In this document: one piece after another, positions 30,989 through 37,905 of the stretch
How the letters are laid out: each line of letters begins with the position of its first letter
Position numbering within the stretch: the stretch's first letter is position 1
Notes under the pieces: generated by a model
Told to the model about the DNA's origin: nothing
Databases searched by the model: none
What the model saw: the letters and a program-made list of their open reading frames with translations, nothing else
NCBI GenBank assembly: GCA_902806565.1
Contig: CADCXA010000025.1
Location: forward strand, 2,790,001 to 2,854,000
Length of the DNA: 64,000 nt
From: Hypoxylon rubiginosum
Lineage: Eukaryota > Ascomycota > Sordariomycetes > Xylariales > Hypoxylaceae
Direction of reading: 5' to 3'
Program-made: the position numbers and the translations under genes

Positions 30989-32450
30989 TCACCGCATGCC
31001 GACCCAGCTCCCGAGCCACCGGGAGCTCGAGGCGACGCGCGCGACGTCGTCGAGGGCGCGGCGGACGCGGCCCTCGGGGTCGTCGCGCCGGTGGCCCTCG
31101 AACTCGACGAAGAATACGTACCGGAAGGCACCGGCGTCGGCCCCGGACCCGGCCCGGGCGAGGCTCGGGCGGCTGCCGATGCTGGTCAGGTTGAGGCGCG
31201 CGCGGCGGAAGCAGTCGAGGACGTCGGCGAGTGCGCCCGGGTGCCGGTGCGGGACGGTGAAGGAGGCGAGGGACTTGGACCGCGAGTACGCCGGGTCTTT
31301 TGGCTCCGCGTCGTCGTCGTCTTCCCCTGCGTCTTTTCCTTGGAGCGAGCCTGCTGCCGCTGCTGTGTCGTGAATACTCTCCTCCCTCTCCATCCTCCGC
31401 CTCCGCCTCTCCACCAGCCACTCCGGATCGCTATCACCATCACCATCACCATCACCATCCCCGCTACCGCCACCACCGCGCCTCAGCACGAAGAAGCGCG
31501 TAGTATTATCGTCGCGGTCCTCGATATCCCGCGCCAGCACGTCGAGCCCGAGCGTCCGCGCCGCGGCGGCGCTGCTCACGGCGGCGCTCTCGCCCGAGGC
31601 GTCGGCGCGCGCGAGCTCGGCGGCGCGGCTCGTCGAGCTCACGTCGACGGTCTCGACGCCGCGGAGCGACTCCCGCAGGAACCGCGTGCACTGGCCGAAG
31701 GCCTGCGGGTGGCTGTACACGCGCCTGACGTGGCTCACGTCGTGGATGAGCGGCGATTTTATAACCGTTACTCCCCCAGGGGCCGCTGATGAGGATGAAG
31801 AAGAGGGTGCTGCTGCTGGTACGTGGCCTAGCAAGCAGTGGTGCACGTCGAGATAGATCTCGGCGCACACGCTCAGGTCCGGGTACTCGCCGTCGCGGTC
31901 GGCGAACTGGTCCAGGGTAAAGACGACGGAGCCGTTGGACGAGTTCTCGAAGGGCACGACGCCGTAGTCGGCGCGGCCGGACTGCGTCGTGGTGAAGATG
32001 TCTTTTATTTTTGTGTTGCCGTATTAGTGTTTATAAACTCAGGTAAAAGAAATTACCGTATAAAAGAAGAAAAAGAGAGACAGAAAGACTACAAAACGTC
32101 TTTCTATCTGTCCGCCAGCCTATTCCTCTGAAATGCTTAGTAGTAGTAAACTTGCTTGCTTACCTTTAATCGTCTCAACCGGTATCAAGTCAAACTTGTC
32201 CTCTGGAAAAGTGTCTAGCGTTGCCTGCACAACCCCGGAAGAGCGAGCATCGCGATTAGCTTTGAAGATGAAAAACCGGCGCTTAAAAGAGGGTGCGTGT
32301 GTGCGGATGAGATCCGGAGCTGCGCCGTACCTGGTGCGTATAGGACGAGACGGGGCCCAGGAAGCACACCGTCGGCTTTGCGGTCGTTGCCGTTCCCGCC
32401 GCCCCGGCGTCTAGGCCGGTCTCGTTCTCCCTCAGCCCGCTATTTTCCAT
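30989..32450 (-). CDS. PHA2: Prephenate dehydratase with C-terminal ACT domain
   Basis: Converts prephenate to phenylpyruvate, the committed step of phenylalanine synthesis. Exons 32450-32331, 32224-32164 and 32001-30989 give 397 aa. The opening VCFLGPVSSYTHQ continues across intron 1 into ATLDTFPEDKFDLIPVETIK and then GVVPFENSSNGSV, the catalytic family pattern; YSHPQAFGQC (156-165) and NTTRFF (226-231, with the conserved TRF) follow. The ACT domain (about 303-395) includes SLASFTVPHRHPGALADVLD and IGSRPS, the allosteric phenylalanine-site motif. Between the two domains (about 234-300) lies a low-complexity insert with Gly-Asp repeats, five consecutive Arg and an acidic patch. Exon 3 is very GC-rich. 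The start is the ATG nearest the conserved core. Confidence 0.93.
31431..31460. repeat. (CACCAT)n microsatellite inside the prephenate dehydratase CDS
   Basis: Four to five CACCAT units encode the alternating Gly-Asp run at residues 241-250 of the insert between the catalytic and ACT domains. Confidence 0.9.
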
Positions 32451-33502
32451 ATTCCGTTTACGAATCCTTTGGATGTATGAGTATGAGTATGACGTAGAAT
32501 GAGAAGAATGAATGTAAAAAGGACGGGACGTGAGGTTTCTAAGAGAAACCCGGGAGCGGCTTATGAAGGCCGGGGGAGAGAGTGAGAAAAGAGTTCGGTA
32601 GGGCAATAAGTCCGGGTCCCCTTTGTTTTTTTGTACTACCACGGGCTCGTCACTTACAAAAAGGGGGGTGGGGGGAGGGCACCGCTGATACTTTTCAAAC
32701 AGAGAATTATTGCTGTGTCCCCGGCTTGTAGATAGCAAACACTTGCAAAATAACTAAGAGCTCCCTAAAGTAACCGATTCTAATTGGTGGTTATGTTTGC
32801 ACGAGGTGGGTCTTTGACAAGACGACTTCAGTTGCGCCCTTTTGTACGCAAAAAAAGGAGAGAAAGGATTGGGATCGAATGCCGGACAATAACTTGAATT
32901 GATCCACATTCATACCTCCTAGACTCCGTAATTCGGCTTCATTTTGACACGCATGACTTGAAGGCCTCATATAAGTACAGCATCAGCTTATCCGCCTACA
33001 CCAGGACATCAGCAGCTTCTCACTAAGCTACTAGCATCTTATCTTCCTCGTAGCTGACTTGTTACAGGAAAATAGTAATATAGGAGGCACTGATTCGACT
33101 GGTTTAATTTTAATCATTATCACAATATAGAGACATTCCGGATTCATCAAGGAGTGACTGATACGCTATTGTGCACTATCTAAGTAGTTCCGTCCCACGG
33201 GAACAATAACGAGGGTAACTAGTTAGCAGATGTCACGAGCCCCAAGCTCAACATACCGCTGGTGCAGACGTGCAGGGCGAGAAGAACCAAAATACTCTAA
33301 TGTGTTAATAAAGCAGCAAGGCGAGCCGACTGGGTCAATCACGCTCAGCTGCCTAGAAGGATGAAGCCCGTGATGTAGGCAGGTCCAATTCTCCAGACAG
33401 TTAGACCCCCAGGTATGGCATCTTTGCTACCTGCGTTAGTCCCTTGAACCATCGTGCTTGGGCTGTTGGAAGTCGTACCTCCTTTCCATGCCGTAAGTCA
33501 AC
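32451..33502. other. Intergenic: PHA2 promoter and distal eRF1 3'UTR
   Basis: The right end (about 33427-33502) is likely eRF1 3'UTR containing a second intron. The remainder is promoter of prephenate dehydratase. No gene is seen. Confidence 0.5.
33427..33478 (-). other. Probable second 3'UTR intron of eRF1
   Basis: On the minus strand, GTACGA donor at 33478, a consensus ACTAAC branch at 33440-33435, then acceptors at GCAG (33431) or GTAG (33427), giving 48-52 nt. It begins 24 nt after the readthrough-frame stop (33505-33503). The branch word is strong, but the branch-to-acceptor distance to the first AG is short, so the second AG is preferred. RNA evidence is not available here. Confidence 0.5.
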
Positions 33503-33911
33503 TCAAGCCGTCATCATAGAGCGAAGCGGGCTGGGTGTCGCGACCTGTTTAGCCGTATGCTCCGAGTTCGCCGGGCCAGATTTCATCAAACGCCGCTGTG
33601 CGAACGACGCCGCTGTTGCTTTCCTCGCAGATCCTGGGGCTCGCGATGGTGCGGGCGCGGGGGGTAGCGGCAGCGGACGTTCTGATGCTTTCACGACAAA
33701 CGCTTGCTTAGACGATTCTACTTGAGCCTTGCCCTCGTCTCTGACGAGGGATTCCTCAAACTGCATAAGTCTATGTCAGTAACAATACAAAAGTATAGAG
33801 GCATCGCTATTGAAGGATATATCTTTTTTTCTCATAAAATTTCTGATATGCGCAAGGGACGACCTAACACGAATTTAGAGTGTATGTTAAGGAACTTCAT
33901 GCGCGTACCTG
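33503..33911 (-). promoter_or_regulatory. In-frame eRF1 readthrough extension across a 3'UTR intron
   Basis: Directly after the eRF1 UGA (33914-33912) comes CAG, then a GTACGC donor at 33908. The intron runs to 33761 with a TTACTGAC branch and TATGCAG acceptor. The next exon continues in the eRF1 frame for 85 codons to a UGA at 33505-33503. The predicted extension (readthrough residue, Gln, then 85 residues) is Pro/Ala/Ser/Arg-rich and looks disordered. Unspliced, the frame closes after three codons. The intron signals are good; that ribosomes enter the extension is inference. Confidence 0.6.
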
Positions 33912-35477
33912 TCAATCGTCATAGTAGTCGTCGTCGTCATCCACTTCAGCTAACTGTTCGAAGTTCACCTTGTAGCGGAGAATGCCGCCAATACCACCGA
34001 ACCCCTTGACGAACTGGTTGCCTTCAGTCGACCTATCCGATACGAACTCCAGATTGGTTCCGAAATCTTTATAGTGCTCTGCGATCCACTCAAGGAATGA
34101 ATCTTGAGACACCGCCTCCATTTCCTGATTAGTCTCCTTATCTAAGAACTTGGATCGGTCGCCCGTCTCTTGCTGTTTCGTAGTGTGGAGGATGATCTCG
34201 GCGCCGGTGCTATCCTTTAAAACCCATCGAGTAATCTCAAGGTTCTCGAAGACGATCAAAGTTTCCACCGCGCCCAGTTCTAAGGCCTTGAGGGTATCCT
34301 CAATACCATAGCAGACTTTTCCAGTATCTTGGCTGATCTCTTCGAAGTACTTGCCGATGAGCTTCTTCTCCTGGATGAACTTGACATTTCCGAGGGTCTC
34401 GGAAGACAGTTCTATAGCCTGGTTAAACCCGTTCTCGCCACCGTACGACACATCCACGACCTTGATGACCTTGCTCGCCAGTCGGTTGTCGAACATATCG
34501 GATGCGTTGAGATCGTTTTTGAAATCGGCAGAACCAGCGAGGATAATTCCGGCAACATTGACCTTGTCGTTGCTGATGAAATTCTGAACGGCCAACTCGG
34601 CGACCTTACGGACGTAGTTGTGTCGCTTTTCCTCTCGAAGACGGGCGAAACGAAGGGCCGACTGTCCACCACGTCCGTGCTTTTTGGGCAGATCGACGGA
34701 GAACTTATGGATAACATCGCGAGTATTTCCGCTTAGTGTACCGAAAAGAGCACCGTTACCATCCATGACGATGAAGCCAAACTTCTGGTCGGACTCTAGC
34801 AGCTCAGCCAGAGCCTCAGTGTGGAATTTGTTGTCGCAGAGATACAGAGACGTGTTGATGGGCTTGAAGGGCTCGAAGTCGATGTTGACCTTTCGCTCCT
34901 TTCCTTCCGAGGTCAAGATTTCACCACAGTAGACGACCAGTCCATTAGGAGGAACTTTGTTATAGAGCTTTAGTCGCTGCTGGGTCGAGGTGATGGCGGA
35001 GAGCACAGATTGTCGGTTAACACGAGACTTGATGTTCGAGGCAGTTCCCTAGTATCGACGGTCAGCTTACTACCAATTCAACTTGAATTAGCGGTCAGAG
35101 GAAGAGGGAGGATGCTACGTACATATTCTTCCGCCAACATCTTGGCTGCGCGTGAGATCTGGTCCTTAGGAGCTGCATTTGAAGATTAGTATTTTTCCTT
35201 TTTTGATAGAATCGAAGCGGGGGAGGGGTAAAAACCACATACGAATAATCAGAGAAATCATGCTTGTTCCATTGCCACGAGCGGCCTCGAGGCGCTTGAT
35301 CAGCTTCTTGACTTTCCATATCTCGATCTGTAGGCGCAAGAGGTGTTAGACAATGGCGGTTGAGGGTCGAGGGAGAAAGGGGGTGGCCTCAAAGGGGGGG
35401 AATGATGCTAAGGAGCCACCTATGACGATATGCGCACTTACGTTCTTCTCAGCCTCCGTAGCCTGAGCGTCACTCAT
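33912..35477 (-). CDS. SUP45: Eukaryotic peptide chain release factor 1 (eRF1)
   Basis: Recognises all three stop codons in the ribosomal A site and, with eRF3, triggers peptide release. Exons 35477-35442, 35327-35243, 35172-35123 and 35048-33912 give 435 aa, close to the yeast and human lengths. Stop-codon recognition motifs NIKS (62-65) and YLCDNKF (126-132) are intact, as is the catalytic GGQ (184-186) in [12 protein letters not shown]. The C-terminus ends in the usual acidic YYDD tail. The start [12 protein letters not shown] leads in frame into [14 protein letters not shown], the conserved N-terminal helix. The first coding exon has only 12 codons. Three short introns fall within the first 60 codons, a common pattern in fungal housekeeping genes. 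The UGA-C stop with downstream introns suggests autoregulation (see findings). Confidence 0.97.
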
Positions 35478-37905
35478 TTTGGCTTGTCGGTGATGAGCGA
35501 TCTAGAATACGGATTTTTCTTTTGTGGAGTTGTTCTTTAAGTCGGCGAAGATCGTATCAATGTTGGTAAGAGGGAAAAAGTTGGGTGAAATTTGTGGTTG
35601 AGGGAAACAAGGAATGCGTAGACGAACGCCAGGGCGGGCCCTCGGGTTAGTTGGTGAGGTACAAGTACGTCAAAAGTTGCAGGTATTGAAATAAGCAGAA
35701 AACGTGCACGGGCACAAGAGTTAAAAAAAAATATTCACACAAAGTGGTCCTCTTTTGAGCCACTATGTGGCGCTAGTGCAGCCTTAGTCTGACTCTCTGT
35801 CTTAGGTAACAAAGCTTGCAAGCAGAAATGAGAAAGCTGGGGCTGGCTGGCTGGCTGGGGCGGCTTCAAAATTAGGCTAGCGCGGGACAGCGGGATTAGC
35901 CAGGCTGACTCCCGAAGGCCCGTGACTTCCTACCCGCACTGACCTTTTTTAGACCGGGCAAAAGTCACACATCATCGCTCCTCGCGAAAACAACACGTCA
36001 ATCGACATTTCGGCAATTCAGTTGGCTACCAACACGACAAACCCCCATGACCGGAGAGAAACGATAAATGCATACATAAGCCTACAAACCATGAGTCGCG
36101 AGGAATTTAATGCAATCGTTATTTCTTCATCTAGGACATTGCGATAACAACCTCATCTCTGAATCTCAACTTTGAGTCTTAACAAAATGAGCGCAGATTA
36201 GCCTATCGAGATCGTACTCGATGTTGGGTTTTGACGCACTAAAATGTGGCACATCAGAAACGTGGATGTGATCGTCGCGTGCCGGTGGTAGCGTATGCGA
36301 TGGGGACCATGGCAAGACACAGTTGAGCGACCACTCCTGGCCTTGCGTCCGCACCTCAACTATCACCTCACGCACATCACGTAGGGACCTGTATCCTATA
36401 ATTTGCCTTCATGTCATTGAGAACGGCTCAGTTTTCTATTTAAGTATCTGAGTGATTGCCATAAGGCGTGGCAATTATAAAACGTTTGTCGGGAGGGCAG
36501 ATTGTTATGAACTCAACTACCTGCTAGATTGGGCTACAATCGGTACCTTGGCTAATATGTCATTTACTGACCGGACAAGCGCAGAGGAAGGCCCTAAAGC
36601 CAGGGTTAAAAGAGAACACCCTCTAAGCAGGGGATTATCGTATGGGGCTGCGGATTCCGGGCTGCAGGACTCCCCTCGTACGACTGCCATGGGGAGAGGC
36701 GAGATGATGGCGCAAGAGCAACATAATTCTTCGGAAATCTGATTACTTGCATTGAATTGTCGTCAGACAATACGCCGAGATGGCTTTTGCAAGGGCTCTT
36801 GCGAAGGGACCTGCTTGGTTGCGTCCTCTTCCGTTGCTGGTTATCTGGACGGCCAAAAATTGTCTTGTCATCCTCGATGGGATCAAATTACACAGTTTTT
36901 GGCTGTCCACGATAGCCTCAAATACGAGGAGAGTTCGGTTGGAAATTCTGCCGGTTACGGTCTTCGTTGCTCCAAGCCGAGGTGGAGCTAAGCGACTGGG
37001 CCAATTCACCGCAATGCAACGGCAAGACACGGGACTCACCACGACGTACGTCGGGAGTACCGATATGATGCGCACGATTCAATCGAGGTAAGACGGCATT
37101 CTGGTGCTCGACCTATTTTCCGGTCACGACTTACTATACGGCATAGCGGCGTTATTCACATCTATCAGGGTGGGCAACGTTGCATCTACCCCATACGGGG
37201 TCAATTGGGCATTTCTGCCGGGTTCAGCAGATACCTGTGTATGCTGACTGACGACACGACCAACACACAATATGCAGTGGACACACAATTACCAGTGGAT
37301 CAACTATATCTTCTATGGTGATGATGTCTGCTCAAATTCCAACGTTGGCCTTTGGGTTCATCATGTTATATTGGTAGTGCATAGGTTGTGGGCATAGTCG
37401 AGCTGGGGTTTTTGTTTTGAGTCGAGACCTTGGGCTTTAGGGCATTGGGGTGTTGGATGAAGGATGGTGACCGATGATGGCAGAAAGAGGATGGTGAGGT
37501 TGGACCAGTGACAAAGGGTTGGGCTTGGCCACGAGGGTCTTGGGTCTTGGGATGGATGATGGGAGGTCCTTATCGGCTAAGGGGGGATAGGTAGTAGGTA
37601 GGTACGGCGGTAGGTAAGGTATGCTTGGGAACTGGAAGGGGGGGAGGCTGGATATACCTGATACCTGTTTACCTATGTAGGTAGATACATGCTTAACAAT
37701 TTGTCTCTTAACCTATCAAATCTGCTCTTCCCTCCCCTGGTCCATGTGCGGCTCAAGCCTAATCAGGTTGGATTTTTAGCGTTTCCCAAATTTCGTGGGC
37801 TCCTGGACTTTGACCTTGACCTTCTCTTTACACTCCACCCTCCACATCCCACTTTCCATCTTTAACTTCAACCACAACCACACATCGACAGCAACGCCGA
37901 CCAAA
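35478..37905. other. Divergent intergenic, eRF1 (-) / DDT-WHIM protein (+)
   Basis: A 2.4-kb gap. It contains a GGCT tandem repeat at 35839-35860 and GGTAGGTA-type words near 37590-37690. ORFs of 96-110 codons at 36452-37091 occur on both strands with no recognisable domain; they look like chance. Confidence 0.5.
35839..35860. repeat. (GGCT)n microsatellite
   Basis: GGCTGGCTGGCTGGCT is directly visible in the eRF1 promoter side of the divergent region. Confidence 0.85.

Follow-up and report, generated by a model that had tools for sequence, protein, structure and literature searches.

Does the eRF1 protein of Hypoxylon rubiginosum always end at its stop codon, or does the mRNA behind that stop encode a further, selected tail by which the gene could regulate itself? 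The window considered here, the whole stretch of 64,000 nucleotides from 2790001 to 2854000 of contig C25, carries a single eRF1 gene on the minus strand, whose spliced translation yields 435 aa from four coding exons: exon 1 at 35442–35477, exon 2 at 35243–35327, exon 3 at 35123–35172 and exon 4, which ends in UGA, at 33912–35048 (all minus strand). Exon 4 matches the Pfam families eRF1_1, eRF1_2 and eRF1_3, and the gene is identified as eRF1 by the NCBIfam model aRF1_eRF1 (389 bits). A second eRF1 copy was considered and rejected, the sole other Pfam eRF1_1 match in the 48.3-Mb genome being pelota/Dom34 (NCBIfam pelota, 217 bits), a gene found on the same contig as eRF1 (locus L001, 1480–2619, plus strand).

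The normal eRF1 stop (UGA, 33912–33914, minus strand) is followed by C, as UGA CAG, and a predicted first 3′UTR intron of 148 nt (33761–33908, minus strand; 36% GC) starts 3 nt past it, with a GTACGC donor at 33908, an ACTGAC branch and a TATGCAG acceptor (TTATGCAG) ending at 33761; the sequence-only reading of this DNA had placed both the stop and this intron, and on re-reading its coordinates were correct. The CAG-UUU behind the UGA is what we take to be a partial match to the yeast CAR-type readthrough motif. With regard to the wider stop context, the eRF1 stop is UGA-C and not CUAG, and has U at −1; passages of PMC12233894 describe UGA followed by C as leaky, CUAG as the strongest known stop context, and U at −1 as going with low readthrough in mammalian cells. 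The acceptor of this first intron has comparative support, since homology among relatives starts at the codon TTT directly behind it. Upstream of TTT the gene models diverge, and Q alone is common with one of them (P0005), where it would correspond to the acceptor CAG itself. We also observe an earlier AG (33771–33774, minus strand; ACTGACATAG ACTTATGCAG) that follows the branch site but precedes the acceptor given above; its use would bring a stop five codons past the UGA, and the choice between the two acceptors could serve as an additional gate on the extension.

After splicing, the reading frame stays open for 86 codons, namely a Q from CAG at 33911–33909 and 85 further codons, up to a UGA at 33505–33503 (the same end as had been read before, where the count was put at about 87), and the in-frame extension with its stop occupies 33503–33760 on the minus strand. 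Across 264 kb of the genome, 38 of 23,503 stops combine a donor close by with an intron-like module and 80 or more open in-frame codons; this control required a GT[AG]NG donor within 15 nt, covered both strands in three frames each, ran in each piece as far as its last 1.5 kb, and counted eRF1 itself. The same layout is found at the ends of two of 50 stop-to-stop ORFs of at least 250 codons, eRF1 being one; the other, at about 4091 on the minus strand of locus L019, has 88–89 open in-frame codons and may be a spurious ORF. Judged within this genome, the stop layout is moderately more than chance would give. The open frame by itself is weak evidence for coding, and stop-free windows of 85 codons make up 4.4% (252 of 5,676) of those outside long ORFs. 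The frame of the extension has the best codon score of the six and is the sole open one, and its score is of the size usual in coding windows (of 232, 58% score no higher); among stop-free wrong-frame windows 41 of 107 match this score, as do 52 of 252 open non-ORF windows. Coding statistics were accordingly set aside as proof of coding, as the score of the extension is not separable from those of stop-free wrong frames. A search of the genome for other copies of the extension gave none that convinces (one further match, E 0.66), and the extension matched no Pfam family (E up to 1) and no NCBIfam family.

Relatives provide evidence of a different kind. With the extension as query, two of eight candidates were matches: Hypoxylon texense has a protein of 91 aa (91% identity, E 8.6e-38) and Xylaria longipes one of 67 aa. 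When eRF1 plus extension was the query and scoring was confined to the extension, two of 245 candidates matched, these being the eRF1 gene models of Xylariaceae sp. FL0662B and AK1471, which carry the extension fused (E 2.8e-22 and 2.6e-16). Of the six matches that a profile search with the extension produced from 6,308 candidates, four had not come up before: one from Daldinia eschscholtzii and three further proteins, with the weakest homologue at E 9.7e-4. Extension homologues (the full set is P0001–P0008) are found in five other named Xylariales, three of them placed in the order by look-up of the named species and the other two, both Xylariaceae, by record name; in two of the five the extension is fused to eRF1 in the gene model. 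None of 15 pattern matches on viral contigs, nor any of 107 on prokaryotic contigs, was confirmed as a homologue. The H. texense protein bears the database name prephenate dehydratase, which may have been taken over from the next gene; in the window, the gene that follows eRF1 on its strand is a prephenate dehydratase (30989–32023, minus strand; Pfam PDT, E 2.8e-45).

Conservation is greatest in the last 28 residues of the extension (LMKSGPANSEHTAKQVATPSPLRSMMTA; 33506–33589, minus strand), where identity to this sequence is 79–100% in seven of the eight homologues and 50% in the eighth, far above the 18–78% of the middle part. In all six sequences that reach that far, the opening block reads F[E/D]ESLVx[D/N]EG. 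At the C-terminus, seven of nine sequences end in MTA, one in MTV and one in MTAT; eight of the nine share the end position, and conservation runs up to the second in-frame stop, as in extensions of the AMD1 type. The near-invariant end PSPLRSMMTA (33506–33529, minus strand) contains an S-P-x-R sequence that we take to be like a CDK phosphorylation site. A predicted structure of P0003, made with eight alignment rows, was uninformative (mean pLDDT 32). On these comparisons the extension is a selected coding exon and not open 3′UTR, because it is conserved at the protein level, is 79–100% identical at its end in seven of eight homologues and stops at a common position in eight of nine sequences. 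The sequence-only reading had offered a functional extended isoform as the alternative to regulatory readthrough; the two are not mutually exclusive: the peptide sequence of the extension shows strong conservation, so that there is a selected tail by whichever route it is produced. Such a tail is easily overlooked, since databases show it either as a split-off small protein or as part of an eRF1 model in which the stop is skipped.

The other element on which regulation would depend is a possible second 3′UTR intron (33431–33478, minus strand), for which the GTACGA donor at 33478 and the ACTAAC branch are present in the sequence as previously described. Its acceptor would lie at 33431 or 33427, so that the candidate runs from GTACGA to ACTAACGCAG (48 nt) or to ...GCAGGTAG (52 nt), and its first AG is very close to the branch A. 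Relatives had been proposed as a check on the frame, length and intron positions of the extension: eight of nine sequences share its end, and homology starts at the first-intron acceptor. The second intron is a prediction from sequence. The predicted second junction falls 285 nt past the normal stop and 24 nt past the second stop, and our recomputation gave the same distances as before. The exon-junction complex (EJC) sits about 20–24 nt before junctions, and a 50-nt rule applies to nonsense-mediated decay (NMD). By that rule the first junction, 3 nt past the stop, should leave no downstream mark, and the second should leave a mark for normal termination only. In Neurospora crassa, introns near the stop or in the 3′UTR can reportedly bring NMD, and the 3′UTR-intron route is reported to need EJC factors. 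As for the machinery, the H. rubiginosum genome encodes UPF1, UPF2, UPF3 and Mago. The readthrough–NMD circuit that the sequence-only reading saw here is partly supported, in that its geometry fits and these four factors are encoded; what it overlooked is a third route, which begins at a donor 30 nt ahead of the stop and is taken up below.

With moderate confidence we propose that a selected C-terminal extension exon behind the UGA is used in an eRF1 readthrough–NMD feedback loop. The in-frame exon, its conservation at the protein level, its start at the acceptor and its common end have direct support, and we infer the steps of the loop, which would run as follows. When eRF1 is plentiful, ribosomes would stop at the UGA and the exon-junction mark would stay about 285 nt downstream, at the second 3′UTR junction; with this mark left in place, the eRF1 mRNA would be degraded by NMD. 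When eRF1 is scarce, the UGA-C would be read through, perhaps helped by a hairpin, and the tail translated. Terminating 24 nt ahead of the second junction, the readthrough ribosomes would remove the mark, whereupon the mRNA would be spared and the eRF1 level would recover. The read-through eRF1 would retain its acidic end and add the conserved tail. Since NMD in this scheme hangs on the second intron, its predicted status counts against the circuit.

The hairpin in question, a candidate readthrough stimulator that is suggestive only, is a perfect 8-bp stem with a triloop (33732–33750, minus strand), the first base of which is nt 14 past the UGA in the spliced mRNA. A 60-nt window containing it is more stable than dinucleotide shuffles (z −3.25), than synonymous recodings (P 0.033 and 0.026) and than genome windows of like GC (P 0.011). 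This support drops in longer windows, to z −2.02 at 90 nt and −0.76 at 120 nt; windows as stable are found elsewhere in the eRF1 mRNA, and the genome is not short of perfect 8-bp hairpins (459 sites in 263,496 positions). Six sequences cover the hairpin; in these its arms encode SLV and EG, both invariant and separated by D or N, and the loop codon encodes the variable residue, a suggestive coding pattern. An Rfam search of 33000–35600 gave no match up to E 0.5. For alphaviruses, PMC8310308 describes increased readthrough where a stem-loop lies 3′ of the UGA.

Readthrough is the favoured way of reaching the extension, with alternative splicing possible as a second route. The alternative that survives best dispenses with readthrough: a possible alternative donor, GAA/GTGGAT (33939–33944, minus strand; phase 0; 30 nt before the stop), would sometimes be joined to the same acceptor, so that the last 10 residues and the stop of eRF1 are removed and the conserved tail replaces the acidic end. 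In an mRNA spliced in this way, too, translation would stop 24 nt short of the second junction. Donor and acceptor share phase 0, and two gene models from different Xylariaceae isolates (P0003 and P0004) join NFEQLAE to F(E/D)ESLV exactly there; both fused models bypass the stop via splicing, which counts against readthrough. Their weight is limited, however, as a gene predictor cannot model readthrough, must avoid stops, and would make up such a junction for an exon that it scores as coding. GTGGAT is also without the G at +5 that is present in the three coding introns and in both 3′UTR candidates. Donor enrichment and a donor matrix were tried for ranking the two donors and rejected as too noisy (32 selected introns, many with doubtful donors); on the matrix, two of the three eRF1 coding introns score about as low as the alternative donor. 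Loss of the acidic end should moreover impair eRF1, that end being reported as a primary eRF3-binding site in fission yeast (Ito et al., 1998), and N. crassa eRF1 is reported to use readthrough (Kurilla et al., 2020). Taken together, alternative 5′ splicing as the sole route is a real possibility, if an unlikely one.

It is also conceivable that both routes operate, readthrough serving feedback and a minor splice isoform giving a stable, tailed eRF1 of separate function. One conserved exon could serve either route, both donors being phase 0 with the extension, yet this arrangement is less simple, and we consider it improbable. That the extension is an independent small gene, or an open frame of its own following eRF1, is far less credible again: in H. 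texense and D. eschscholtzii it is indeed annotated by itself, and here TTT has an in-frame ATG two codons ahead of it, but the residues before the acceptor vary between models while conservation starts at the acceptor codon, and two models have the extension fused to eRF1. The weakest reading, that of a functionless chance frame in the 3′UTR behind a constitutive or spurious intron, could appeal to the 4.4% of non-ORF windows of such length that are stop-free, and is scarcely tenable in view of homologues in other genera and in one further family, the best of them at E 8.6e-38.

If, as we prefer, the extension is reached by readthrough and takes part in the feedback loop, what might the tail itself do? 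The concentration of conserved residues at its extreme end points to a short binding motif, to a degron, or to some influence on how translation terminates at the second stop. The length of 28 residues is about that held inside the ribosome exit tunnel at the second stop, and we mention, as speculation of low probability, that these residues could act on termination there, by stalling or by sensing free eRF1, so that the tail would be more than a spacer for clearing the NMD mark and eRF1 activity would be measured twice. Were this so, eRF1 would gauge itself at the leaky UGA and then again at the second stop. The level of eRF1 sets the fidelity of stop-codon reading, and an exon conserved in Hypoxylaceae and Xylariaceae would turn a failure of termination, or alternative splicing, at eRF1 into a selected protein product. 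Besides making this product, the readthrough or splicing may spare the mRNA.

How does this compare with known systems? The N. crassa study reportedly proposes circuits of this kind for many fungi already. The sequence-only reading was right that eRF1 circuits had been reported in plants and Neurospora: eRF1 of N. crassa is described as autoregulated by readthrough and 3′UTR-intron NMD (Kurilla et al., 2020, FEBS Lett 594:3504, doi 10.1002/1873-3468.13918; cited in PMC10578600 and PMC9809470), and Arabidopsis eRF1-1 has a readthrough–NMD circuit (Nyiko et al., 2017, doi 10.1093/nar/gkw1303, via PMC9293766). The N. crassa case is alike in concerning eRF1 of a Sordariomycete and in that readthrough shields an mRNA with a 3′UTR intron from NMD; the present case may differ in having a predicted intron 3 nt past the stop and a second candidate 24 nt behind the readthrough stop, and in that the extension is a conserved peptide. 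A conserved extension is not known to be part of the Arabidopsis circuit. There, too, readthrough of the gene's own stop is reported to protect the mRNA from NMD, the difference being that the organism is a plant. The passages on suaA/eRF1 of Aspergillus nidulans (PMC4065248) amount to annotation and contain neither an extension nor readthrough of its own stop. The readthrough–NMD circuit of eRF1 is itself already known from N. crassa and plants, and ours is probably another instance of it.

For a conserved tail of this kind AMD1 is, by analogy, the nearest precedent. Human AMD1, in the passages of PMC13025110, has a conserved C-tail extension made by readthrough, with conservation just before the second in-frame stop and with stalling shown by structure and mutants. 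The present case is unlike it in that the gene is eRF1 itself, that the purpose may be escape from NMD, and that the tail is not known to stall ribosomes. Among the papers listed by literature searches we found no description of a conserved fungal eRF1 extension with a fixed end, and we do not claim that one is unreported. It is possible that the conserved tail is a new element of a known circuit.
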